From contig NZ_AP020335.1 in assembly GCF_013340845.1 (NCBI RefSeq), positions 124,001 to 188,000 of the forward strand: DNA of 64,000 bases, read 5' to 3'. The notes below the pieces were generated by a model. That model saw only the letters and a program-made list of their open reading frames with translations, searched no databases and was not told where the DNA came from. The number at the start of each line of letters is the position of its first letter. Position 1 is the stretch's first letter. The position numbers and the translations under genes are program-made. Below are positions 27,130 through 61,413 of this stretch, piece by piece. This DNA comes from Hydrogenovibrio marinus. Its GTDB lineage: Bacteria > Pseudomonadota > Gammaproteobacteria > Thiomicrospirales > Thiomicrospiraceae.

Positions 27130-28701
27130 TTACTTTCCTTCATACCCTGGAATGTTTGCTTTGATGACTTCATCGATTTGTTCCGGGTGCAGGTATTTTT
27201 TAGCGTAATCCATATAAACCTCTTGTTCTACAAAGAGGTCAAACAAATCTGGGTCAATATGTCCTTCCAGTTTCAGGAAGCCAAGGATTTTTAAGCTTTC
27301 TGAAAGTTTTTTTGCCTTTTTATATGGACGGTCAGCAGCGGACAAGGCTTCGAAAATATCGGCTATGCCCATCATGCGGGCAGGAACGGAGAGTTGTTCT
27401 TTTGTCAGTTGGTTCGGGTACCCTTTACCATCCACTCGTTCATGGTGACCGCCTGCGTATTCAGGGACATTCTTCAGTTCTTTTGGGAAAGGAAGAACGC
27501 TTAGCATGGAAATCGACATGGCGGCATGGTCTTGCATTTTTTCACGCTCAAAGTCGGTCAGGGTGCCCTTCGGAATCGTCAAATTGACGAGTTCATCTTC
27601 TGTGATTAGAGGCAAGACCTCACCTTCCAACGAGATATAGGTCTCTTTGGATAAATTCTCAAGGAATAATTTGTCTTCATCCGTTAAGAATTCCATCGAA
27701 TTAATGCGTGCGAGTTGTTTAAAAATCGCCAAATAGGCCTCTTTTTGATAGTTCAATGTTTCAGAAGAACGGTCCACCGTCAAAAGAAGGTTCTGGTAAG
27801 CCTTGAGAGTGAGTCTGGTTCTAATAAGCTCGATTCTGTCATATTTGGTTTCCAGCTTGGTCGATTTGTCCATGATGTAATCTGGCGTAGTGAGCTTGCC
27901 GCAGTCATGGAGCCATGCGGCGGTTTCCAGCTCAAACTGTTCGGAATCGTTCATATAGAAATTCTTGAACGGGCCGTGGTTGACCTTGTTTGCCGCTTCG
28001 GCAATCATCATGGTAATGACTGGAACTCTTTGACAATGCTTACCCGTGTAAGGGGATTTTTTATCAATCGCGTCCGCAACCAGTTTGGTGAAGGATTCAA
28101 ATAGTTGTTTATGTTCTTCGATGAGTTGACGGTTAATCAGCGCAACTGAAGCCTGGGAAGCTAATGACTTAGCTAGGCTTTCCGATTCGTTTGAAAAAGC
28201 GATAGGATTGCCATTTTCATCAGTTGAGTTGATTAGCTGTAAGACACCGATGACTTCTTGATCGACATTTTTCAAAGGCACGGTCAACATGGATTTTGTT
28301 CTATAGTTGACGGTTTGGTCGAACTTCAAAGCACCGGAAAAATCGAACTCATCAGCAAAGTAAATATCTTCGATGTTTACGGTTTCCCCTTTATTCGCAA
28401 CATAGGACGCAATAGCCGAGAGGTTTTCTTTGCCGTCGGCTAGCTTGAGCGGTATTGGGGGAAAAGGTACTGGTGTTGGATGGGAACCACCCATGACAAT
28501 GTTTAAGCTGGTGTTTTGAACCACGTCGAAAGACAGTTGGGAACCGTTAATCACACGATAGAAAGTTCCGCCGTCAGCGCCAGTAAGTTGCTGTGCGCTG
28601 GTTAAAATTTCGCATAACAACGCCGCAATGTCGGTTTGAGCGGATAAAGCCATCCCTATACGGTTTAATTGGCTGATCTTGTCTAAAAGTGACGTGTCCA
28701 T
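27130..28701 (-). CDS. GAF / HD-GYP c-di-GMP phosphodiesterase candidate
   Basis: A 523-residue soluble protein: GAF domain (about 10-190) then an HD-GYP domain. Metal and catalytic motifs are present: HDCGKL (His265, Asp266), HHE and GKGYP in HHERVDGKGYP (419-429), and GIADIFEALSAADRPYK. Between the HD helix and the HHE motif lies an extra helical block of about 90 residues (about 298-388) not found in the canonical domain. Likely hydrolyses c-di-GMP under control of a GAF-sensed ligand; the insert could alter regulation. Confidence 0.88.
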   Translation of the reverse strand: MDTSLLDKISQLNRIGMALSAQTDIAALLCEILTSAQQLTGADGGTFYRVINGSQLSFDVVQNTSLNIVMGGSHPTPVPFPPIPLKLADGKENLSAIASYVANKGETVNIEDIYFADEFDFSGALKFDQTVNYRTKSMLTVPLKNVDQEVIGVLQLINSTDENGNPIAFSNESESLAKSLASQASVALINRQLIEEHKQLFESFTKLVADAIDKKSPYTGKHCQRVPVITMMIAEAANKVNHGPFKNFYMNDSEQFELETAAWLHDCGKLTTPDYIMDKSTKLETKYDRIELIRTRLTLKAYQNLLLTVDRSSETLNYQKEAYLAIFKQLARINSMEFLTDEDKLFLENLSKETYISLEGEVLPLITEDELVNLTIPKGTLTDFEREKMQDHAAMSISMLSVLPFPKELKNVPEYAGGHHERVDGKGYPNQLTKEQLSVPARMMGIADIFEALSAADRPYKKAKKLSESLKILGFLKLEGHIDPDLFDLFVEQEVYMDYAKKYLHPEQIDEVIKANIPGYEGK

Positions 28702-28920: not shown

Positions 28921-29697
28921 ATGAAATTAACAATACTTGGGGCCAGCGGAGGTATTTCTCCGGAGAGTGGTACGACGTCGTTTTTGCTGGGAGAGTCAAT
29001 TCTGATAGATGCCGGAACGGGTTCCAGTCGTTTAACCCATGAGCAGATGCATAATATCCGTTACGTATTGTTAACACATAGTCATTTAGATCATATTTGT
29101 AATCTACCCTTCTTACTGAACACTATCATTGGTGAGATGAAGCATACGGTAGAAGTATTTGCCCTTCAACACACAATAGACGCCTTAAAGAACCATATTT
29201 TTAATGGTGTTATTTGGCCGGATTTTTCCGTTATTCCTTCAAAAGAAAACCCTGCTCTGAGGTTTAAAACCATTGAGGTCGGCGAAGAGTTGAAGCTTGG
29301 CGAACTTGATATACAGGTTTTGCCGGCAGAACATACCGTTCCGACAGTTGGATTTAGAGTTTCCGATAAAACGGGAAGTTTTGCCTTCACTGGAGATTGT
29401 GCGCGGAATGATAGCTTTTGGCAGGCATTGAATCAGTACTCCCCGGTAGATTTATTGATTGTTGATGATCAGTATTTGGCCAGTGAAGTTGCAATCAGTG
29501 AAGCAGCTAAACACTATTACCCACAATCCTTGTGTGAAGACTTAGTAAAGCTCAATGGGCAGCCACAACTCTATCTAACCCACTTGCCGCCATTCAAAAA
29601 AGAAAAAGTGATGTCGGAAGCAGAAGCTGTCTTATCTGATTGGCAGCCTAAAGCCCTAACGGAAGGTATGGTGCTTGAGTTTCCGTTGCAGCCTTAA
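28921..29697 (+). CDS. Metallo-beta-lactamase-fold protein, possible 3',5'-cyclic nucleotide phosphodiesterase
   Basis: A 258-residue MBL-fold hydrolase with the metal motif THSHLDH near residue 55, a further His in AEHT, the Asp of FTGDCARND, and a late THLPP. The opening ILGASGGISPESGTTSFLL and the HLDHICNLPFL pattern fit class II cyclic nucleotide phosphodiesterases (PDE1/CpdP type) better than RNase Z or glyoxalase II. If so, it would oppose the CHASE2 adenylate cyclase at 56866, but that link is inference. Confidence 0.65.
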   Translation: MKLTILGASGGISPESGTTSFLLGESILIDAGTGSSRLTHEQMHNIRYVLLTHSHLDHICNLPFLLNTIIGEMKHTVEVFALQHTIDALKNHIFNGVIWPDFSVIPSKENPALRFKTIEVGEELKLGELDIQVLPAEHTVPTVGFRVSDKTGSFAFTGDCARNDSFWQALNQYSPVDLLIVDDQYLASEVAISEAAKHYYPQSLCEDLVKLNGQPQLYLTHLPPFKKEKVMSEAEAVLSDWQPKALTEGMVLEFPLQP

Positions 29698-50676: not shown

Positions 50677-50899
50677 CGGGTTTGAAATCTTTCAGTTTTG
50701 TAAATGATGGTAGCTAGCGAAAGTGGGAGGGTTATTGGTTGAAATTTCAGGACTTTTTTTGTGGATTAAAGTATTATTAAACCATAAAATAATGTTTATT
50801 TATCAGGGCTAGGAATTTTTGAATTGTTGTGTATGCATCTTGACTATTAAGATAAAGCTGCATTTAAGACACAGTTGGAGATTTCAAGTGGAGACGAAA

Positions 50900-51280
50900 A
50901 TGGATTCAATGATTTCGGTAAAAAATAGAGACTTTTATTCAGATAGAACAACTTCACTTGAGAATTCAGACAAGCGACAAACAGTCAGAGTCGCTTCCAA
51001 CCGACCGGTGGTGATGAAGGTTAATGACTCAACAATTTTTGCGACTATGACTGATTTCTCAAAACATGGTTTGGGCTTTATCGCTATGTATCAGTTGGAC
51101 CGTAATGAAACGGTTGAAGTGCATTTTGATATTCCTTTTAAAAATGGCTTTAAAAGCTTCTTGTTTAACGCTCACGTAAAGCATTGCATTGATTTATTCG
51201 ACAAAAGTCATATTGGTGTTAGGCTGGACATTGAAGAAAATGAATACAGTCAGTTGTTCGATAAAATTATTGCGACCTGA
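50900..51280 (+). CDS. PilZ-domain protein, probable c-di-GMP receptor
   Basis: A single PilZ domain of 126 residues. The ligand-binding motifs are visible: RQTVR (RxxxR) and DFSKHGLG (D/NxSxxG). An upstream TTG at 50819 would add a poorly conserved stretch; ATG 50900 has GGAG six bases upstream and is preferred. It lies before the secretion locus but is separated from it by a hairpin. Confidence 0.85.
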   Translation: MDSMISVKNRDFYSDRTTSLENSDKRQTVRVASNRPVVMKVNDSTIFATMTDFSKHGLGFIAMYQLDRNETVEVHFDIPFKNGFKSFLFNAHVKHCIDLFDKSHIGVRLDIEENEYSQLFDKIIAT

Positions 51281-51468: not shown

Positions 51469-52800
51469 ATGAAAAAAATTTCATATTTCCTTTTTTTGTC
51501 GTTTTTGTTGCCGTCATTCAAGGCAATGGCTGCTGTTGATTTTCAATCGGCACTTCAGTTATATAAAGACAAACACTATGAAAAAGCTTATGAAGCCTTT
51601 TTGACGTTGGCTGACTCCGATTACACCAATGTCGACTACAACTACTATCTCGCGCGCGCCGCTTTTTTTGTTAAAGAATACAACGAAGCCATTTCCGCCT
51701 ATGAACGTATTTTGATTCAATATCCGAACAATGCGCGTTCCAAACTAGAATTGGGGCGCCTCTACTATGAAATGCATCGTTATACCGAAGCACGCAAATA
51801 TTTAAATGACGTCTTGAAGACAGATGCTCCCCAAGCGGTAAAAAATAACATTCGGTATTACTTAGCCAGAATGGATCAGGATGGCGAAAAACCTACGTTG
51901 AATACGGTGAAGGCAACCCTGTTGGGATCAGTCTTCTATGATTCAAATTTAAATTACTCTCCAGAGTCGGATCAAATGATCCTTCCCTCTGGAAGTTTGA
52001 AGTCTGCTGCGGACATCGGCGCATGGGGTTCTGAGCAGATGTTGGTGCTTAACCATCGTTACGAAAATCCAAACAAACAGAGTTATGCCTGGTTGAATGA
52101 TTTTGTTCTCTACAACAAAGCCTCTCCCGGCAACAGTGAATACAATATTCTGTATGGAAGTTACTCCCCGGCATTATCGTTTCAGCATGACAGATGGACG
52201 TTGGATGCCGGGGTAACCGTTGACGGCATGAACTATGGTAAAAACCCGTATATGATGTCTTACGGTATTTCGCCGAAGGCGACTTACATGCCGAATTTGA
52301 CGGAGTATTTTACGACCCAGTTCAGGTTCTTAAAGCGTGACTATCAAACCAATAGCACGAAACCTAAAGATTCCAAATTTGCACAAATCAGCACCCTATA
52401 TCAAAAACGAGTCGGCCCGTTGTTTTCTTGGTATGGGCAGGCTGTACTTGAAAGAGAAACTGCCGATGCTGCACCGACAACACTCGTCAATGTTGACTAC
52501 CATCAACTTGGTTTGAAGGCCGGTGTTGCCTATTTGCTTCCTCAAAACCTCACATTGTCCGGTACGTTTGGTTATCAGGATAAATTGTTTGAGAATGTCG
52601 ACCGCCTAACAAAGAATTTTGGCGGAGGAGATGTTAATCAGCACGATAAGCGTTATTACGCTGAAGTGACTTTATCAAAAGATTTCGCTAAGAACGTTAC
52701 CGCTCAACTACGCGCCAGTCGAGTTCACAATGACTCGAACTTATCTGTTTACGCTTATCAGAAAAGTCTTTACACCTTCAACGTTATGAAGCGGTTTTAG
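51469..52800 (+). CDS. Slam-like (DUF560, type XI secretion) outer-membrane protein, copy 1
   Basis: A 443-residue exported protein. Signal peptide to about residue 21, then TPR helices (about 24-150, e.g. YYLARAAFFVKEYNEAISAY), then a region of repeated amphipathic beta strands ending in the aromatic residue of NVMKRF, as in outer-membrane barrels. An N-terminal TPR part plus a C-terminal barrel, with a GSVFYDSNLNYSP junction, is the layout of Slam proteins, which move cargo to the cell surface. The next gene, ten bases later, encodes a matching cargo-type protein. Copy 2 lies at 54109. Confidence 0.65.
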   Translation: MKKISYFLFLSFLLPSFKAMAAVDFQSALQLYKDKHYEKAYEAFLTLADSDYTNVDYNYYLARAAFFVKEYNEAISAYERILIQYPNNARSKLELGRLYYEMHRYTEARKYLNDVLKTDAPQAVKNNIRYYLARMDQDGEKPTLNTVKATLLGSVFYDSNLNYSPESDQMILPSGSLKSAADIGAWGSEQMLVLNHRYENPNKQSYAWLNDFVLYNKASPGNSEYNILYGSYSPALSFQHDRWTLDAGVTVDGMNYGKNPYMMSYGISPKATYMPNLTEYFTTQFRFLKRDYQTNSTKPKDSKFAQISTLYQKRVGPLFSWYGQAVLERETADAAPTTLVNVDYHQLGLKAGVAYLLPQNLTLSGTFGYQDKLFENVDRLTKNFGGGDVNQHDKRYYAEVTLSKDFAKNVTAQLRASRVHNDSNLSVYAYQKSLYTFNVMKRF

Positions 52801-52809
52801 GAGGGTGTT

Positions 52810-54051
52810 ATGTTAAGAATGACAATGTTCGTTTTGACCCTAGTGCTTAGCTTTCAAGCTTTAGCTTCTATCGGGAAAATTTCTGCTGTTCGTGGAGAAG
52901 CGCACTTCCTTCGTGGTGCTCAGGAAGTAGTGATTAATGTTGGTGATATGGTTGAAGAAAAAGACCGAATTAAAACTGGCGCAAATACTCAGGTTCAAGT
53001 TGTGTTCAATGACAGAACCATCGTTACGATCGGAAAGAGTACTGATTTCTCAATTCCCCAGTATGTTTATGGGGATGCTGATACCTCTAAAGCCCAATTT
53101 AACCTTGCCAAGGGTGTTTTTAAATCCATTTCAGGTAGGATCGGTAAGTTGGCTCCTCAACGTTTTAAAATCAAGACGGCGACTTCCACTATTGGAATCA
53201 GGGGGACGACCTATATTGTACGAGTCGTTGGCTCGGAAACCAGTTTGGCGACATTGAACGGTGCAACCTATATGGAACTCAATAGTGGTAAGACCTATGA
53301 TGTGCCTGCCGGAAAAGAATTGGTTTATAACATTGATACCGGAAAAGTCACTCTTCAGGATGTGTCGTCAACCTCAGTTTCAGTAAATACAGGCACTATC
53401 GGTGATGATAAAACTAAAACTGCTGATAATGAAAGTGATGGGGGCTCAGGAACCGATGGCGGTGGCACGACAGACGAAGCTCAGAATACAGTAGAGACCA
53501 ACACCTCTACGACCCAGACAACTTCACAAAATGTTGAGACAGAAGACAAGAAAGTCAAAGTAGCTGCTGGATCGGATTCCTATACATCTTATGGTTATTG
53601 GCTTGACAAGACGACTCAAGAAAGAAGTTCGCCTTATTCTGAACCTTTATCGGGTGTGAGTTTGACGCCTAATATGCAGGCTGTTTTAGATGGCATTGGC
53701 TCGCAGTCCTCTTTGACTTATTCGGGGAACTTAACTGTTTTTTCAGGTTCGTACAATGCATCAGGAACGATTAACATGACCATTTCAGGATACTCAAAAG
53801 ACGTTTCCGGGAATATGACATTTACACTAAATGGTGTTCAGTGGAGACCGTATTTTGATAGTGGAACAATAAACGCTAGCAGCAGTAGTTTCAGCTCGAC
53901 ATCCTTTTATGATGGAAGTGAGTCAGGGGCGAGCTATAGCGGTAGTATTAATGGAAAATTTTATGGCTCCAATGCTAATGGTGTTGGTGGAACATTTGAT
54001 GTGACGAGAAATAGAACCAAAGCAGAAGGATCTTATGCGGCGAAGCAATAA
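52810..54051 (+). CDS. Secreted FecR-domain protein with TbpB-like C-terminal barrel, copy 1
   Basis: A 413-residue exported protein. The signal peptide (1-19, ALA|S) has no lipobox cysteine, so it is not a lipoprotein. FecR domain at about 45-190 (IKTATSTIGIRGTTYIVRV); a Gly/Thr/Asp-rich linker at about 195-250; then a strand-rich domain with GKFYGSNANGVGGTF at 382-396, the hallmark of TbpB-like barrels. That barrel is the part recognised by Slam translocators in known cases. Function of the secreted protein (ligand binding or signalling) is not known. Confidence 0.65.
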   Translation: MLRMTMFVLTLVLSFQALASIGKISAVRGEAHFLRGAQEVVINVGDMVEEKDRIKTGANTQVQVVFNDRTIVTIGKSTDFSIPQYVYGDADTSKAQFNLAKGVFKSISGRIGKLAPQRFKIKTATSTIGIRGTTYIVRVVGSETSLATLNGATYMELNSGKTYDVPAGKELVYNIDTGKVTLQDVSSTSVSVNTGTIGDDKTKTADNESDGGSGTDGGGTTDEAQNTVETNTSTTQTTSQNVETEDKKVKVAAGSDSYTSYGYWLDKTTQERSSPYSEPLSGVSLTPNMQAVLDGIGSQSSLTYSGNLTVFSGSYNASGTINMTISGYSKDVSGNMTFTLNGVQWRPYFDSGTINASSSSFSSTSFYDGSESGASYSGSINGKFYGSNANGVGGTFDVTRNRTKAEGSYAAKQ

Positions 54052-54108
54052 AACGGAAGTGTGTTCAGATGCGGCGAGCCGTCATGGTGAGATGTTGGTG
54101 AATCATTC

Positions 54109-55452
54109 ATGAAAAAATGGATATGGGGGGTTGTTGCCAGCACTGTTGTTTTGGTTCAAGGTCAAGCCTATGCAGGCGATGTCCAAGCAACGGTCAGTTA
54201 TACTCAAGCCTTAGAGCTGTATAAACAAAAAAAATATCAGGCATCGTACCAAGCGTTTTTACAGTTGGTTTCCACTGATTATGGAAATGTTAATTACAAC
54301 TACTACTTGGGGCGTTCCGCTTTTTTTATAAAAGATTACCATGAGGCCATTGGGTCTTATGAGCGTATTCTGATCAGTTACCCTCATAACCAACGTGCCA
54401 AGCTAGAACTGGGTCGCATGTATTATGAACTCGGTGACTTTGTTCAATCAAAACGCTATTTGATGGAGGTGTTGGACTCAAACGCACCTGAAACAGTGAA
54501 GAATAATATTCGTGTTTATCTGGCTAGAATGAGTGCTATAGATAATAAACCGCATAATTCCGTCAGAGCGACGTTGCTTGGGTCGGTGTTTTACGATTCA
54601 AATTTGAATTATTCACCGCAGTCCGACAACTTTCAACTGCCGAGTGGAACATTGAATTTCCCTTCGGATATTGGCGCGTGGGGTTCCGAGCAGATGTTGA
54701 CGGTTAATCACCGTTACGACAACCCAAAGAAGTATGGGTTTGCGTTTAAAAACGATGTCACGCTTTATAACCGTTGGTTACCGAACCAGACAGATTACAA
54801 CATTTTGTTTGGTAGCTATATGCCCGCGTTGTCGTGGCATAAGAAAGGGTGGACAACCGATGCGGCACTGTATGTAGATGACATGACCTATGGTAAGAAC
54901 CCGTATTTAATGTCATATGGTATTGCTCCGACAATCAGTTATATGCCGGATTTGACTCAGTTTGTTTCGACGCAGTTCAAGTTGCTGAAAAAGGACTACC
55001 AGTCAAGTGTCTACCGTGATCGTGATGCACAGTATATGCAACTGGCAATGTTGTATCAGAAACGAATAGGGGCATTATGGACGTGGTATGGACAAGGTGT
55101 CGTCGAGAGTGAACAAAAACAGCGTAGTTCAGACACGGTGAATGTCGACTACCAGGCGTTGACGGCTCGACTGGGGATGAACTATCTCTTCCCGAAAGGC
55201 TATAGTGCTGGCATTTTGGGAGAGTATCAACAGAAACAATATTTGCAAGATGATTTCTGGCTGAAAAGCTTAAGTGGTGCCAACAAGCGTCAAACAGATA
55301 CCAAATTGACCTTGACTGCTACACTCACCAAAGACATTCAACAGACATTGTCCGCACAGTTGAAGTTGTCTGTTGTGCAAAACAACTCTACGATTAAGAT
55401 TTATGAATATCAGAAAAATGTGGTGACACTTAATCTGATTAAACGTTTTTAG
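54109..55452 (+). CDS. Slam-like outer-membrane protein, copy 2
   Basis: A 447-residue paralogue of the 51469 gene with the same order: signal peptide, TPR part (YNYYLGRSAFFIKDYHEAIGSY), GSVFYDSNLNYSP junction, and a barrel ending NLIKRF. The two proteins are similar along their full length yet differ at many positions in the barrel, so the duplication is old enough for specialisation. The gap to the preceding gene is 57 bases with no terminator, so one long transcript is likely. Confidence 0.65.
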   Translation: MKKWIWGVVASTVVLVQGQAYAGDVQATVSYTQALELYKQKKYQASYQAFLQLVSTDYGNVNYNYYLGRSAFFIKDYHEAIGSYERILISYPHNQRAKLELGRMYYELGDFVQSKRYLMEVLDSNAPETVKNNIRVYLARMSAIDNKPHNSVRATLLGSVFYDSNLNYSPQSDNFQLPSGTLNFPSDIGAWGSEQMLTVNHRYDNPKKYGFAFKNDVTLYNRWLPNQTDYNILFGSYMPALSWHKKGWTTDAALYVDDMTYGKNPYLMSYGIAPTISYMPDLTQFVSTQFKLLKKDYQSSVYRDRDAQYMQLAMLYQKRIGALWTWYGQGVVESEQKQRSSDTVNVDYQALTARLGMNYLFPKGYSAGILGEYQQKQYLQDDFWLKSLSGANKRQTDTKLTLTATLTKDIQQTLSAQLKLSVVQNNSTIKIYEYQKNVVTLNLIKRF

Positions 55453-55461
55453 GAGAAGCCG

Positions 55462-56832
55462 ATGTTGACTCGCTTTTTATTGATGATTTTGCTGGTGTTG
55501 TCGACACCGACATTCGCTTCTATTGCCAACGTTTCCGCTATCAAAGGTGATGCGGTCATCTTAAGAGGAGATCAAAAGTTGCCAATCCATCTCGGCGATG
55601 CGATTGAAGAAAAAGATCAAATCAAGACCAGTAATGAAACAAAGGTTCAGATTATCTTTAAAGACCGAACCATTGTAACGATTGGAAAAAACACGCTGTT
55701 TTCAGTGCCTGAATATGTCTACGGAGATGCCAAAACGTCAAAGGTCGAGTTTAAATTATCCAAGGGCGTCTTCAAATCAATGACCGGTAAAATCGGTGAA
55801 ATCGCCAAGCAACGTTTTAAGATCAAAACAGCCACGGCCACTATCGGTATTCGTGGAACCATCTACATTGTCCGTGTGCAGGGTGATAAAACACAGCTTT
55901 CCACCTTGGACGGCGCTACTTATATGCAATTGAACTCGAATGGTGCGGTGTATGATGTTCCTGCCGGGAAGTCGCTGGATTATGATGCTAAAACCGGAAA
56001 TGTCAGTGTGAAAGATCTGACCATTAAAACGGTTATGATTCAAAAAGACCCGCCACAATCAGAGAAAGATCAGTTGGCGGATGCGATTGAAGCTCAGACC
56101 GATGATGTTGGTAGTGGAAACGACTCCAACCCTTTAGGATTCAATGCCGGAGAAGGGTATATCACTGCTCGAACCAAAAATAAGGATAACCCAAACGATG
56201 TTTATCTGGAAGGGATGACAAATACTCAGTCGGTAGGTGATGACTTTGTGTCCTCCATGGTTGCTGACAGTAATTTGCCCACAGATACGGATGGGCAATT
56301 GAATCAAACCACCATCGCCATTCCTTACCAAGTGGTTGCCGGAAAAGACAGTTATAACGAATATGGTTACTGGGCGGATAAAAACTCTGCACAGTTGACG
56401 ACGCCGTTCACTAATCCACTGCCAGGCATTACCGAAACACCGGCGGCTACTATTAGTGGTTTTACGGGAAGCGCTGCGTATTCGGGCAATCTCGTAGCCA
56501 TTTCGGGTAGCAATCAGGCAACTGGAACACTATTGATGCAGGTAAATTTTGGCACAAACAAGGTCAGTGGTTCCATGACGAATTTGACCCTGGCTGGAAA
56601 CAAGTGGGATAACATTTTTACCAACGGAACAGTCTCCAGCTCTGGAGCAATTAGTGTTTCCAACTTCTCTTCCAGTGGTAATGTCTCAGGTATCACCGGC
56701 AGTTTAAACGGTAAGCTTTATGGTAATAATGCGCAAGGCGTGGCAGGTACCTTCAACTTGAGCGGAACAGCCGCTGGCGGAGGTAGCACCAGTATTTCCG
56801 GATCTTATGTTGGTCACGGCGGTGGGCCATAG
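55462..56832 (+). CDS. Secreted FecR-domain protein with TbpB-like C-terminal barrel, copy 2
   Basis: A 456-residue paralogue of the 52810 protein: signal peptide (1-19, TFA|S, no lipobox), FecR domain (IKTATATIGIRGTIYIVRV), a longer and different linker (about 195-290), then YGYWADK and GKLYGNNAQGVAGTF at 417-431. The N-terminal FecR part is much more conserved between the copies than the linker. It begins nine bases after its Slam-like partner and ends 33 bases before the cyclase. Confidence 0.65.
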   Translation: MLTRFLLMILLVLSTPTFASIANVSAIKGDAVILRGDQKLPIHLGDAIEEKDQIKTSNETKVQIIFKDRTIVTIGKNTLFSVPEYVYGDAKTSKVEFKLSKGVFKSMTGKIGEIAKQRFKIKTATATIGIRGTIYIVRVQGDKTQLSTLDGATYMQLNSNGAVYDVPAGKSLDYDAKTGNVSVKDLTIKTVMIQKDPPQSEKDQLADAIEAQTDDVGSGNDSNPLGFNAGEGYITARTKNKDNPNDVYLEGMTNTQSVGDDFVSSMVADSNLPTDTDGQLNQTTIAIPYQVVAGKDSYNEYGYWADKNSAQLTTPFTNPLPGITETPAATISGFTGSAAYSGNLVAISGSNQATGTLLMQVNFGTNKVSGSMTNLTLAGNKWDNIFTNGTVSSSGAISVSNFSSSGNVSGITGSLNGKLYGNNAQGVAGTFNLSGTAAGGGSTSISGSYVGHGGGP

Positions 56833-56865
56833 TCATTGTGATGATAGAAAGCTGGGAGTTGGCGC

Positions 56866-59070
56866 ATGACTAAACTCGGAAAGTGGAAACTTTTCAGTCA
56901 CCTCAGTGTCCTTGTCATCGGGCTGACGGTGCTCATAGGCGGATATTTGTACATTCCGCAAACTTTTCTATCGCTTGATAATCGTTTAAGAGATTTCCTT
57001 TTTCTTGCCCGTGGTCCGATTCCCACGACGGGTCAGGTGGTGATTGTCGATTTGGACGATGCCAGCCTTGAGAAATATGGTCAATGGCCTTGGAGCCGTG
57101 ATTTATTTGCCGAGCTTCTACAAAAACTGGCTAATGATGGCGCGGGTATTGTCGGTCTGGATATCGTGTTTTCCGAAGCAGACAGAACCTCGCCGGCGAA
57201 GCTTGCCAAACGCTACCATTTCCCAGACAAAAATCTGCCGGATTTCGATCAGGTAATGGCAAAGACACTGGCTCAGACCCCGACCATTCTCGGTTATGTC
57301 TTTCAGATGAGTACGCCAACGCCCAAAGCGGATACACCTAATATTCCGGCAATCTTTATAGAACGCGGGTTCTCTGCAAACACCGACATTCTCCAGCCAA
57401 AAGGGGTGTTGCTCAATATCCCGGTACTGCAAAACGCAGCCTATAGCAGCGGCTTTTTCAATAATGTTCCCGATGAGTCAGGGATGGTACGTAGCGTGCC
57501 TTTGGTCATGAAATATGATGGCGTTATTTATCCTTCACTCGCGCTGGAAATGATTCGTATTGCAACACAAAAGAGTAAAGTCTTCGTCAACTACTCGGAT
57601 CTAGGGGTAGAGTCCATTCAGTTGGGCAAAATGTTTATCCCGACAGACCCCGGTGGACGACTGTTTGTAAACTACCGAGGCCCCGGTCATACTTTTCACT
57701 ACATCAGCGCCGCACGAGTCTTGGAGAACAAAGTCGACCCTAAAGAGTTGGACGGCAAGTTTGTCTTAATCGGGACGTCTGCTGCCGGGTTATTGGACTT
57801 GCGTTCCATGCCGTTTGACAACGTTTATCCGGGGGTGGAGGCACATGCCAACGTCATCGACAATATTCTGAAAGGGGATTTCCTCACGCGTCCAAGCTGG
57901 GTGATTTCTGCCAACATGCTCATCATAGCTGTGGTGTTTGCTTTCAGTTATTTGATATTTGTTCGTTTGTCTGCTTTTTGGGCATTTGTCGCCTACTTGG
58001 CGGAAGCCATTGCTTTGTATTTCTTCTATTTTGAAACGCTTTTCAAAGAAGGGATTGTCTTTAACATTCTCTTTGGGGTGTTTGCCTTGGGGGTGGCATT
58101 TATTTTCTCATTGGTAGTTGCCTACTTCTTTGAAACCCGTCAAAAAATGATGTTACGCGGCAAGCTTTCCAGCAAGGTGAGTCCAGCGGTTATGGAAGAA
58201 ATCCTCAAGAACGAAGCCAACAATATTATGGAAGGGGACACACGAGAAGTAACCGTTTTCTTCTCCGACGTGCGCAACTTCACCAATATTTCCGAAGCCA
58301 TGCCGAACGCAAAAACCCTCATTACCTTCCTGAATGATTACATGGAACCCATGACCGATATTATTGTCAAAGCGCAAGGCACGGTCGATAAGTTTATCGG
58401 TGATGCCATCATGGCGTATTGGAATGCGCCGATTGATGTTGAAGACCATGCTGACAAAGCGGTGACCGCCAGTTTGGAGCAAATAAAAGGTTTGGATGAA
58501 ATCAATGAAAAGGTGCGCCAAGATCCACGGTTTGAAGCGGTTGTCAAAATGGCAGATGATGCTGGTGTACCGCCTATTGATATCGGTATTGGCCTCAATA
58601 CGGGGGAGGCCGTGGTAGGAGAGATGGGTTCCGCAGGGCGAAGCGACTATACCGTTATCGGAGATCCTATCAACCTGGGCGCGCGTTTGGAGTCTTTGTG
58701 TAAGTTCTATAACTCTAAAGTGACCATTTCCAATTTCACCAAAGACCTACTGAAACAACCCTATATTTTCCGCTTTCTGGATTTGGTAACGGTGAAAGGT
58801 AAAACTGAACCTGTCGAAGTCTGGCAGGTGCAAGACTTCGGTCAGGCGGAAGGTCGATTGAAAGAAGAGCTTGATAAATACCACCAAGCCATTGCGTTGT
58901 ATAAGGACGCTAAGTTTGACCAGGCGTTGGAAATTTTCAAAGAAGTTGAAGCCTGGCCGGATAAAACCAATCAGAATGTCTACAAGATGTATATTGAGCG
59001 CTGCGAACATTACATTGAAGAACCGCCGGAAGACTTCAACGGCGTGTTTGTCCATAAGACTAAAGGTTAG
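56866..59070 (+). CDS. CHASE2-domain adenylate cyclase
   Basis: A 734-residue membrane receptor enzyme. TM helix at 15-35, extracytoplasmic CHASE2 domain (about 40-330, with IVDLDDASLEKYGQWPWSR), three TM helices (about 346-420), class III cyclase domain (about 455-640) and a TPR-like tail. Metal aspartates Asp468 (FFSDVRNF) and Asp513, base-specificity residues Lys509 (DKFIGD) and Asp600 (VIGDPINLGARLE), and catalytic Asn603 and Arg607 are intact, which favours ATP over GTP. As last gene of the FecR locus it may sense the secreted proteins or the same signal. Confidence 0.88.
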   Translation: MTKLGKWKLFSHLSVLVIGLTVLIGGYLYIPQTFLSLDNRLRDFLFLARGPIPTTGQVVIVDLDDASLEKYGQWPWSRDLFAELLQKLANDGAGIVGLDIVFSEADRTSPAKLAKRYHFPDKNLPDFDQVMAKTLAQTPTILGYVFQMSTPTPKADTPNIPAIFIERGFSANTDILQPKGVLLNIPVLQNAAYSSGFFNNVPDESGMVRSVPLVMKYDGVIYPSLALEMIRIATQKSKVFVNYSDLGVESIQLGKMFIPTDPGGRLFVNYRGPGHTFHYISAARVLENKVDPKELDGKFVLIGTSAAGLLDLRSMPFDNVYPGVEAHANVIDNILKGDFLTRPSWVISANMLIIAVVFAFSYLIFVRLSAFWAFVAYLAEAIALYFFYFETLFKEGIVFNILFGVFALGVAFIFSLVVAYFFETRQKMMLRGKLSSKVSPAVMEEILKNEANNIMEGDTREVTVFFSDVRNFTNISEAMPNAKTLITFLNDYMEPMTDIIVKAQGTVDKFIGDAIMAYWNAPIDVEDHADKAVTASLEQIKGLDEINEKVRQDPRFEAVVKMADDAGVPPIDIGIGLNTGEAVVGEMGSAGRSDYTVIGDPINLGARLESLCKFYNSKVTISNFTKDLLKQPYIFRFLDLVTVKGKTEPVEVWQVQDFGQAEGRLKEELDKYHQAIALYKDAKFDQALEIFKEVEAWPDKTNQNVYKMYIERCEHYIEEPPEDFNGVFVHKTKG

Positions 59071-59163: not shown

Positions 59164-59205
59164 CTGCTTTCAATTTCATCAATATCTATGCTAAGATGTT
59201 GTCAC

Positions 59206-59312
59206 ATCTCTCGGGGTGCGAAGTTCTTTTTTCAAAAAGAACAGAGCTGAGACTGCGCAAGCTAAACCCGTTGAACTTGAACTGGTTAAGACCAGCGTAG
59301 GGAAGAGAACTC
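59206..59312 (+). promoter_or_regulatory. TPP riboswitch (thi box)
   Basis: Thiamin pyrophosphate aptamer. Conserved parts in order: CTCGGGGTGC, GCTGAGA, ACCCGTTGAACTTGA, CTGGTTAAGACCAGCGTAGGGAAGAG. It lies about 200 bases before thiC. The extra arm between GGGGTGC and GCTGAGA is an AAGTTCTTTT/AAAAAGAAC hairpin. Binding of TPP should lower expression of thiC and the genes behind it. Confidence 0.96.

Positions 59313-61413
<2,101 letters not shown>

Follow-up and report, generated by a model that had tools for sequence, protein, structure and literature searches.

A candidate trans-envelope sensing operon joining Slam-like channels, FecR-domain proteins and a CHASE2 cyclase in Hydrogenovibrio marinus

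We analysed a stretch of 64,000 nucleotides of DNA (the window) from the sulfur-oxidising bacterium Hydrogenovibrio marinus and describe five closely spaced genes that may form a trans-envelope sensing operon. Two pairs of genes, each encoding a Slam-like outer-membrane protein of the type XI secretion system (T11SS) kind and an exported FecR-domain protein, precede the gene for a CHASE2 class III cyclase. We lean, with limited confidence, towards a reading in which the outer-membrane channel displays or holds the barrel of its neighbour, and the FecR domain relays this to the CHASE2 cyclase, so that the level of cyclic AMP (cAMP) changes. All five open reading frames (ORFs) lie on the + strand: Slam-like protein 1 (P0001, 443 amino acids, with signal peptide, TPR and beta-barrel) at 51469..52800, FecR protein 1 (P0002, 413 amino acids) at 52810..54051, Slam-like protein 2 (P0003, 447 amino acids) at 54109..55452, FecR protein 2 (P0004, 456 amino acids) at 55462..56832 and the cyclase (P0005, 734 amino acids) at 56866..59070, leaving gaps of 9, 57, 9 and 33 bases. 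The pairs are paralogous, with 52% identity between P0001 and P0003 and 44% between P0002 and P0004. This layout had been described in the original prediction, made from the DNA letters, and it holds. Promoter-like sites occur at chance (20 against 19.7 expected) and terminator-like sites slightly above it (15 against 10.5 expected, standard deviation 2.9); the operon call is therefore based on spacing and strand only.

Pfam analysis of P0003 showed a match to SlipAM (PF04575; E 7.8e-10, 39.2 bits, cut-off 22) that spans positions 8-288 of the 288 in the model. P0001 taken singly matched TPR families, with TPR_Slam under its cut-off (2.9e-4) and SlipAM absent from its Pfam matches, and a weak match to TIGR03016 (6.1e-7, far under the cut-off) was counted against its membership of the Slam family. 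A profile of 43 relatives that includes P0001 (A4; 27 clusters at 50% identity, with TPR_Slam matched by 20 of the 43) aligned over 393 columns with three canonical Slams from genome G181, which adjoin TbpB_B_D, FHBP_C and HphA proteins (99.7%, E 7.9e-26). The barrel alone aligned at 98.7% (E 2e-16, 279 columns) and the TPR part alone at 97.0%, and the barrel of the Sinorhizobium meliloti protein NsrA, used as a control for the barrel-only alignment, gave 0.1%. In the AlphaFold model of P0003 (mean predicted local distance difference test score, pLDDT, of 90), helices at residues 31-145 form TPR-like hairpins and residues 149-446 contain 17 strands, of which we count 14 as long strands of the barrel. 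The barrels of Slam, CymA and OmpG have 14 strands each, and the top PDB structure matches of the model were CymA (Z 22.3) and OmpG (2iwv, Z 21.2); no chain titled Slam was among the matches listed, which carries no weight against membership. By sequence and predicted structure, P0003 is a homologue of Slam/T11SS channels with TPR and a 14-strand barrel, and P0001 is probably Slam-like too, given its identity to P0003 and its place in A4. By this relationship, the Slam-like proteins may transport cargo to the cell surface.

Both FecR proteins score over the Pfam cut-offs for a FecR domain (PF04773) and for a Slam-cargo type of barrel. P0002 matched FecR (1.2e-13) and, narrowly, TbpB_B_D (9e-6, 26.7 bits, cut-off 26), and P0004 matched FecR, TbpB_B_D (27.4 bits, cut-off 26) and FHBP_C (28.4 bits, cut-off 28.1). 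The C-terminal motif noticed earlier in the two proteins is present as GKFYGSNANGVGGTF and GKLYGNNAQGVAGTF, respectively. The model of P0004 (mean pLDDT 71) comprises a confident FecR part at residues 20-185, a disordered linker at 187-311, and a confident C-terminal barrel with strands in 337-453, eight by our count. The FecR part superimposed on the cell-surface signalling (CSS) domain of PupR (6ovk_R; Z 17.4, root-mean-square deviation 2.5, 136 residues aligned), while the barrel matched NHBA (Z 15.4), fHbp (up to Z 14.9), and hemophilin and TbpB (Z 11-13). A Slam-type barrel next to a TbpB-like fold had been proposed at the outset, and both parts of that proposal are borne out by the models and the family alignment. 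No lipobox cysteine is found in the signal region of either protein, and scanning the 56 FecR proteins of the survey for the lipobox pattern gave no hit, in a set where a few N-termini are truncated or too long. Pfam found no anti-sigma domain in the FecR proteins, and the strands of the P0004 model begin at residue 20, directly after the signal-peptide helix, an arrangement that departs from the anti-sigma and transmembrane layout of the FecIRA type. The segment that separates the FecR domain from the barrel is longer in relatives, whose proteins reach 1263 amino acids. We conclude that P0002 and P0004 are non-lipidated exported proteins with a PupR/FecR-type signalling domain, a linker and an 8-strand barrel of the fHbp/TbpB/hemophilin type.

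The cyclase P0005 contains CHASE2 (1.3e-63) and Guanylate_cyc (4.1e-20) domains by Pfam. Residues Asp468, Lys509, Asp513, Asp594, Asn603 and Arg607, which we take to be catalytic, are invariant across six aligned cyclases. It is the sole match to PF00211 in the genome, a single contig of 2.49 Mb, and a search of that genome for class I cyclases (PF01295) gave no match; judged from these families, P0005 looks like the only cAMP-making enzyme of the organism. FecR domains occur twice in the same genome, which also encodes four cNMP-binding proteins. At a distance of about 22 kb from the operon, the window contains a gene for a class-II cAMP-phosphodiesterase-like protein of the metallo-beta-lactamase (MBL) fold, with the motif HSHLDH (28921..29697, + strand), and, divergent from it, one for a GAF and HD-GYP-like protein (27130..28701, - strand). 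In relatives the two are fused into one gene, which adjoins the cyclase: in locus L029 (L029:12504-14927), the MBL-fold protein matches the N-terminal part of the fused product (28% identity, 2.6e-32), and the GAF and HD-GYP-like protein is 43% identical to residues 277-798, a C-terminal part in which Pfam finds GAF and HD_5. Such fusions of the MBL phosphodiesterase-like protein to GAF and HD-GYP are frequent in related loci, and PDEase_II exceeds its Pfam cut-off in three relatives (L028, L029 and L049).

To see how widely this arrangement recurs, we surveyed the best 80 relatives of the CHASE2 cyclase in GTDB genomes, chosen on cyclase similarity alone and mostly from Campylobacterota; one locus (L100) had no anchor, which leaves 79. 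The closest named relative among these matches was that of Hydrogenovibrio sp. JE_KL2 (97%), although very near records may be absent. Partners were counted as close by when they lay at most four ORFs upstream or three downstream (domain E<=1e-3). A Slam-like gene together with a FecR gene was found at 41 loci, a Slam-like gene only at 5 and a FecR gene only at 10, and a recount with five ORFs on either side (at least 90 amino acids) and stricter limits again gave 41 of 79; the co-occurrence in other genomes called for by the original prediction is therefore real. A class-II-phosphodiesterase-like MBL gene lies within five ORFs of the cyclase at 45 of the 79 loci, and at 27 of the 41 with both partners. 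Within the surveyed loci, Slam-like genes occupied 46 of 395 positions one to three ORFs from the cyclase and FecR genes 51 of 395, compared with 1 and 2 of 400, respectively, at four to nine ORFs. This recurrence makes a chance association unlikely. In addition, the trees of Slam, FecR and CHASE2 correlate across the 39 loci with one of each (Mantel r 0.69-0.79, reached in 0 of 2000 permutations), a correlation that also reflects species descent.

A second survey was anchored on the Slam-like protein and covered 40 of the 43 best places outside our own genome, down to the match in G366, in gammaproteobacterial loci of 35 genomes; of the other three, two (in G041 and G044) were already part of the data and one (in G136) lies at a contig edge. 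Counted on six-frame segments, a FecR domain lay within 2 kb in 30 of 40 cases (E<=1e-3; 29 at 1e-5), and only four more FecR matches were found in the 397 kb beyond. Both surveys lean towards this arrangement, since such loci supplied the sequences of their queries (A1 for the cyclase, 6 rows; A2 for Slam, 10 rows), and no denominator excludes loci truncated at contig ends. The trio is present in Gammaproteobacteria, Campylobacterota and Alphaproteobacteria, in the last on the plasmids p1 of Shinella and pAMI5 of Paracoccus aminophilus. Within the genus, the double pair is found in three of 11 genomes (G000, G001 and G004). A single FecR-Slam-cyclase set, with FecR first, is found in G005 and G006 and, elsewhere in the family, in G026 and G030. 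Searches at E<=1e-5 of plasmids with P0004 and of phages with P0003 gave no matches.

An apparent FecR-CHASE2-cyclase fusion of 1088 amino acids in L097 was rejected, as its frame crosses unknown bases and a frame-shifted repeat; the locus is counted among the 41 with both partners and left out of the barrel comparison, which comprises 44 and 9 FecR proteins from loci with and without a Slam-like gene. Barrels in that comparison were detected with a home-made profile; Pfam itself finds TbpB_B_D in 20 of the 32 members of profile A5 (E<=0.01).

Comparison within the genus provided a further hint as to which part faces outwards. The FecR domain of P0002 is 95% identical to that of its counterpart in G001, whereas the barrels are only 48-49% identical; between G001 and G004 the protein 1 barrel is 80% identical. 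The number of synonymous substitutions per site against G001 is 2.9 in this barrel, near saturation, compared with 0.5-1.2 in the other long segments. Slam1 was unchanged while the barrel changed, and no such break between FecR and barrel was seen in protein 2. The protein 1 barrel has apparently diverged or been swapped, a pattern that fits a surface-exposed module.

We propose that in each pair the Slam/T11SS-type protein would recognise as its cargo the fHbp/TbpB-type barrel at the C-terminus of the adjacent FecR protein, moving it to the surface or holding it there, and that the N-terminal FecR domain would remain in the periplasm. FecR could then dock on two partners, the periplasmic TPR of the Slam-like protein and the CHASE2 domain of the cyclase in the inner membrane. 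The TPR is suggested as a contact by analogy with FecA-FecR, where FecR reads the N-terminal periplasmic part of an outer-membrane protein (PMC5498481). A change at the surface, be it a putative ligand on the variable barrel or export that succeeds or is blocked, would alter the FecR-CHASE2 contact and thereby raise or lower cAMP, which might act via CRP-type proteins and be removed by the class-II phosphodiesterase. Such a scheme would resemble FecA-FecR with cAMP replacing the sigma factor, or NsrA-CyaK with the receptor split in two, and the barrel would be an exchangeable outside part placed by a Slam-type channel. In its favour we count the Slam homology, the PupR CSS and cargo barrel folds, the position control, the correlated trees, the FecR and phosphodiesterase-like genes that accompany the Slam-like gene and the cyclase, the precedent of NsrA-CyaK, the single class III cyclase in a genome with no class I match, and the divergence of the protein 1 barrel. 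A bolder form, to which we give somewhat less than an even chance, is that the T11SS translocon itself serves as a sensor, its cargo being a built-in transmitter made up of a PupR-type signalling domain and a surface barrel that can be exchanged, and that the display or occupancy of this cargo outside sets cAMP inside. If true, this would define a class of outer-membrane-to-cytoplasm signalling in Alpha- and Gammaproteobacteria and Campylobacterota in which the surface module is swapped and the transmitter kept.

Several observations weigh against such a relay. SlipAM is matched singly by 15 of the 43 Slam-like proteins (E<=0.01), the same number as match the porin family BBP2_2, and the barrel of NsrA does not match the Slam profile. 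A match to P0003 is missing from six of the 11 genus genomes (E<=1e-5). At 23 of the 79 cyclase loci neither partner is found, some of these contigs being cut short, and a CHASE2 gene lies in the region at only 10 of the 40 Slam-anchored loci, the pair often occurring without a cyclase; the FecR-Slam pair may therefore be the wider unit, with the cyclase as a frequent third. Finally, 11 of the 44 FecR proteins of Slam-bearing loci (210-293 amino acids) have no detectable barrel, so that export of FecR proteins by the channel cannot be general; in three such loci (L095, L101 and L109) a protein with an Ig domain (Big_5) adjoins the Slam gene. Of the two domains, FecR is thus the more constant one, and the barrel is optional and looks like an addition; this reverses the earlier suggestion that FecR replaces a lipid anchor and ligand lobe. 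Taken together, the overall interpretation first given to the locus is partly supported.

As in NsrA, the Slam-like barrel could instead itself be the surface receptor; its TPR would bind FecR and FecR would activate CHASE2, the C-terminal barrel of the FecR protein being a periplasmic plug, a ligand-binder or a relic. Slam-like genes that adjoin barrel-less FecR proteins agree with this, as does NsrA, in which Pfam finds no TbpB-type domain. So does Ensifer PDNC004, whose CHASE2 cyclase and MBL protein are accompanied by a short FecR protein and a TPR-only protein, a set that hints at a TPR-FecR-CHASE2 core. However, a cargo-type barrel is present in 33 of the 44 FecR proteins of Slam-bearing loci compared with three of the nine others (Fisher p 0.02), where the Slam gene may be missing because the contig ends, and it was the protein 1 barrel, not Slam1, that changed within the genus. 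We consider reception without export unlikely, though it deserves serious weight.

Plain T11SS export is less probable still, and we regard it as doubtful. Here the FecR proteins would be secreted adhesins or ligand-binders, FecR a surface or retention module, and the cyclase merely co-regulated, with no contact between them. Slam and FecR pairs that have no CHASE2 gene nearby are common in Gammaproteobacteria, P0004 has a weak match to the LapA retention module (1.5e-5, 25.2 bits, cut-off 50), and big proteins with cadherin, FG-GAP or Ig domains lie near some loci. The tight position effect around the cyclase and the correlated trees speak against this reading, and FecR adjoins CHASE2 with other partners as well, namely in a LysM-FecR protein with a CHASE2 kinase (PMC5192318), in the two-partner secretion (TPS) locus L090 and in NsrA-CyaK. 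That the cyclase reads a busy or blocked T11SS channel and not an outside ligand is very improbable, its one point being that in L090 a FecR/CHASE2 set lies beside a different secretion system.

A number of neighbouring features were also recorded. A gene for a PilZ-domain protein, which would bind cyclic di-GMP (c-di-GMP), lies directly upstream of the operon at 50819-51280 and is kept in both double-pair relatives; its presence in one window with HD-GYP hints at cross-talk between cAMP and c-di-GMP. Downstream, at 59202-59320, there is a thiamine pyrophosphate (TPP) riboswitch ahead of an ORF that by eye resembles thiC. In L090 (592-11175), a TPS protein and ShlB flank a FecR protein and are followed by a CHASE2 cyclase. 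Very large proteins of 1591-1742 amino acids adjoin FecR or cyclase genes in L105, L107 and L088, and Pfam finds cadherin, Ig-like and FG-GAP repeats in those of L107 and L088. The FecR-CHASE2 sets of L194 and L216, on Shinella and Ensifer plasmids, adjoin genes annotated as NHLP bacteriocin export. In L053 and L051, a single Slam-like gene is preceded by the genes of two barrel proteins in tandem; both proteins carry FecR in L053, and in L051 the second does not.

The gene cluster is known in outline. In Campylobacterota, a CHASE2 cyclase, a cAMP phosphodiesterase, a 'FecR outer membrane protein' and a 'TPR protein' were reported as clusters in 2022 (PMC9239204); the word 'Slam' does not occur in the main text of that paper. 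The locus described here shares the cyclase, FecR-domain and TPR genes but differs in that it belongs to a gammaproteobacterium, its pairs are duplicated, and its phosphodiesterase-like genes are split and lie elsewhere. These clusters and the analogue NsrA-CyaK make the initial statement that no such system had been described too strong. What looks new is the identity of the TPR protein as a T11SS-type channel and the presence of a T11SS-cargo barrel in the FecR protein. This link to protein export appears to have gone unnoticed in the open-licence literature, which is the range we cover, with preprints and most subscription journals outside it. The BiofilmReg operon of Burkholderia (PMC5192318) likewise has a FecR protein adjoining a CHASE2 signalling protein, but there the two are a LysM-FecR protein and a histidine kinase, accompanied by a response regulator, and the available text of that paper mentions no Slam-like gene. 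With FecIRA and PupB-PupR the similarity lies in the FecR domain, which folds as the PupR CSS domain; unlike those systems, neither a sigma factor nor a TonB receptor is encoded by the five genes, to which this statement is limited.

Canonical Slam/T11SS loci (PF04575 with TbpB_B_D cargo) share a TPR and barrel channel beside a protein that ends in an 8-strand cargo barrel. Here, in contrast, the N-terminus of the putative cargo is a signalling domain, a lipobox is absent, and the genes are linked to that of a cyclase; the terms 'FecR', 'cyclase' and 'CHASE2' do not occur in the main texts, as available, of two T11SS surveys (PMC12282271 and PMC8406197). T11SS channels with verified cargo number only seven, from an animal-associated cluster (PMC12282271), and what CHASE2 domains recognise in the environment has been described as unknown (PMC5192318). 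The locus suggests a type of cargo for the former and an input path for the latter. As both are tied to the known biology of NsrA-CyaK, the way in which outside signals reach CHASE2 cyclases can be tested directly. Signal perception in S. meliloti requires NsrA and CyaK, and residues 600-1200 of NsrA are termed a C-terminal, outer-membrane beta-barrel (PMC7529298). In S. meliloti strain ml28, nsrA lies directly upstream of cyaK, which encodes a CHASE2 cyclase, and Pfam finds FecR (66-160) and TPR in NsrA; hhalign of whole NsrA with the Slam-like family aligned only the TPR (38%). In both systems FecR, TPR, an outer-membrane barrel and a CHASE2 cyclase are encoded together, but NsrA is a single chain of 1200 amino acids, whereas here the receptor would be split in two. 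The system is best read as NsrA-CyaK-like signalling built from T11SS parts.

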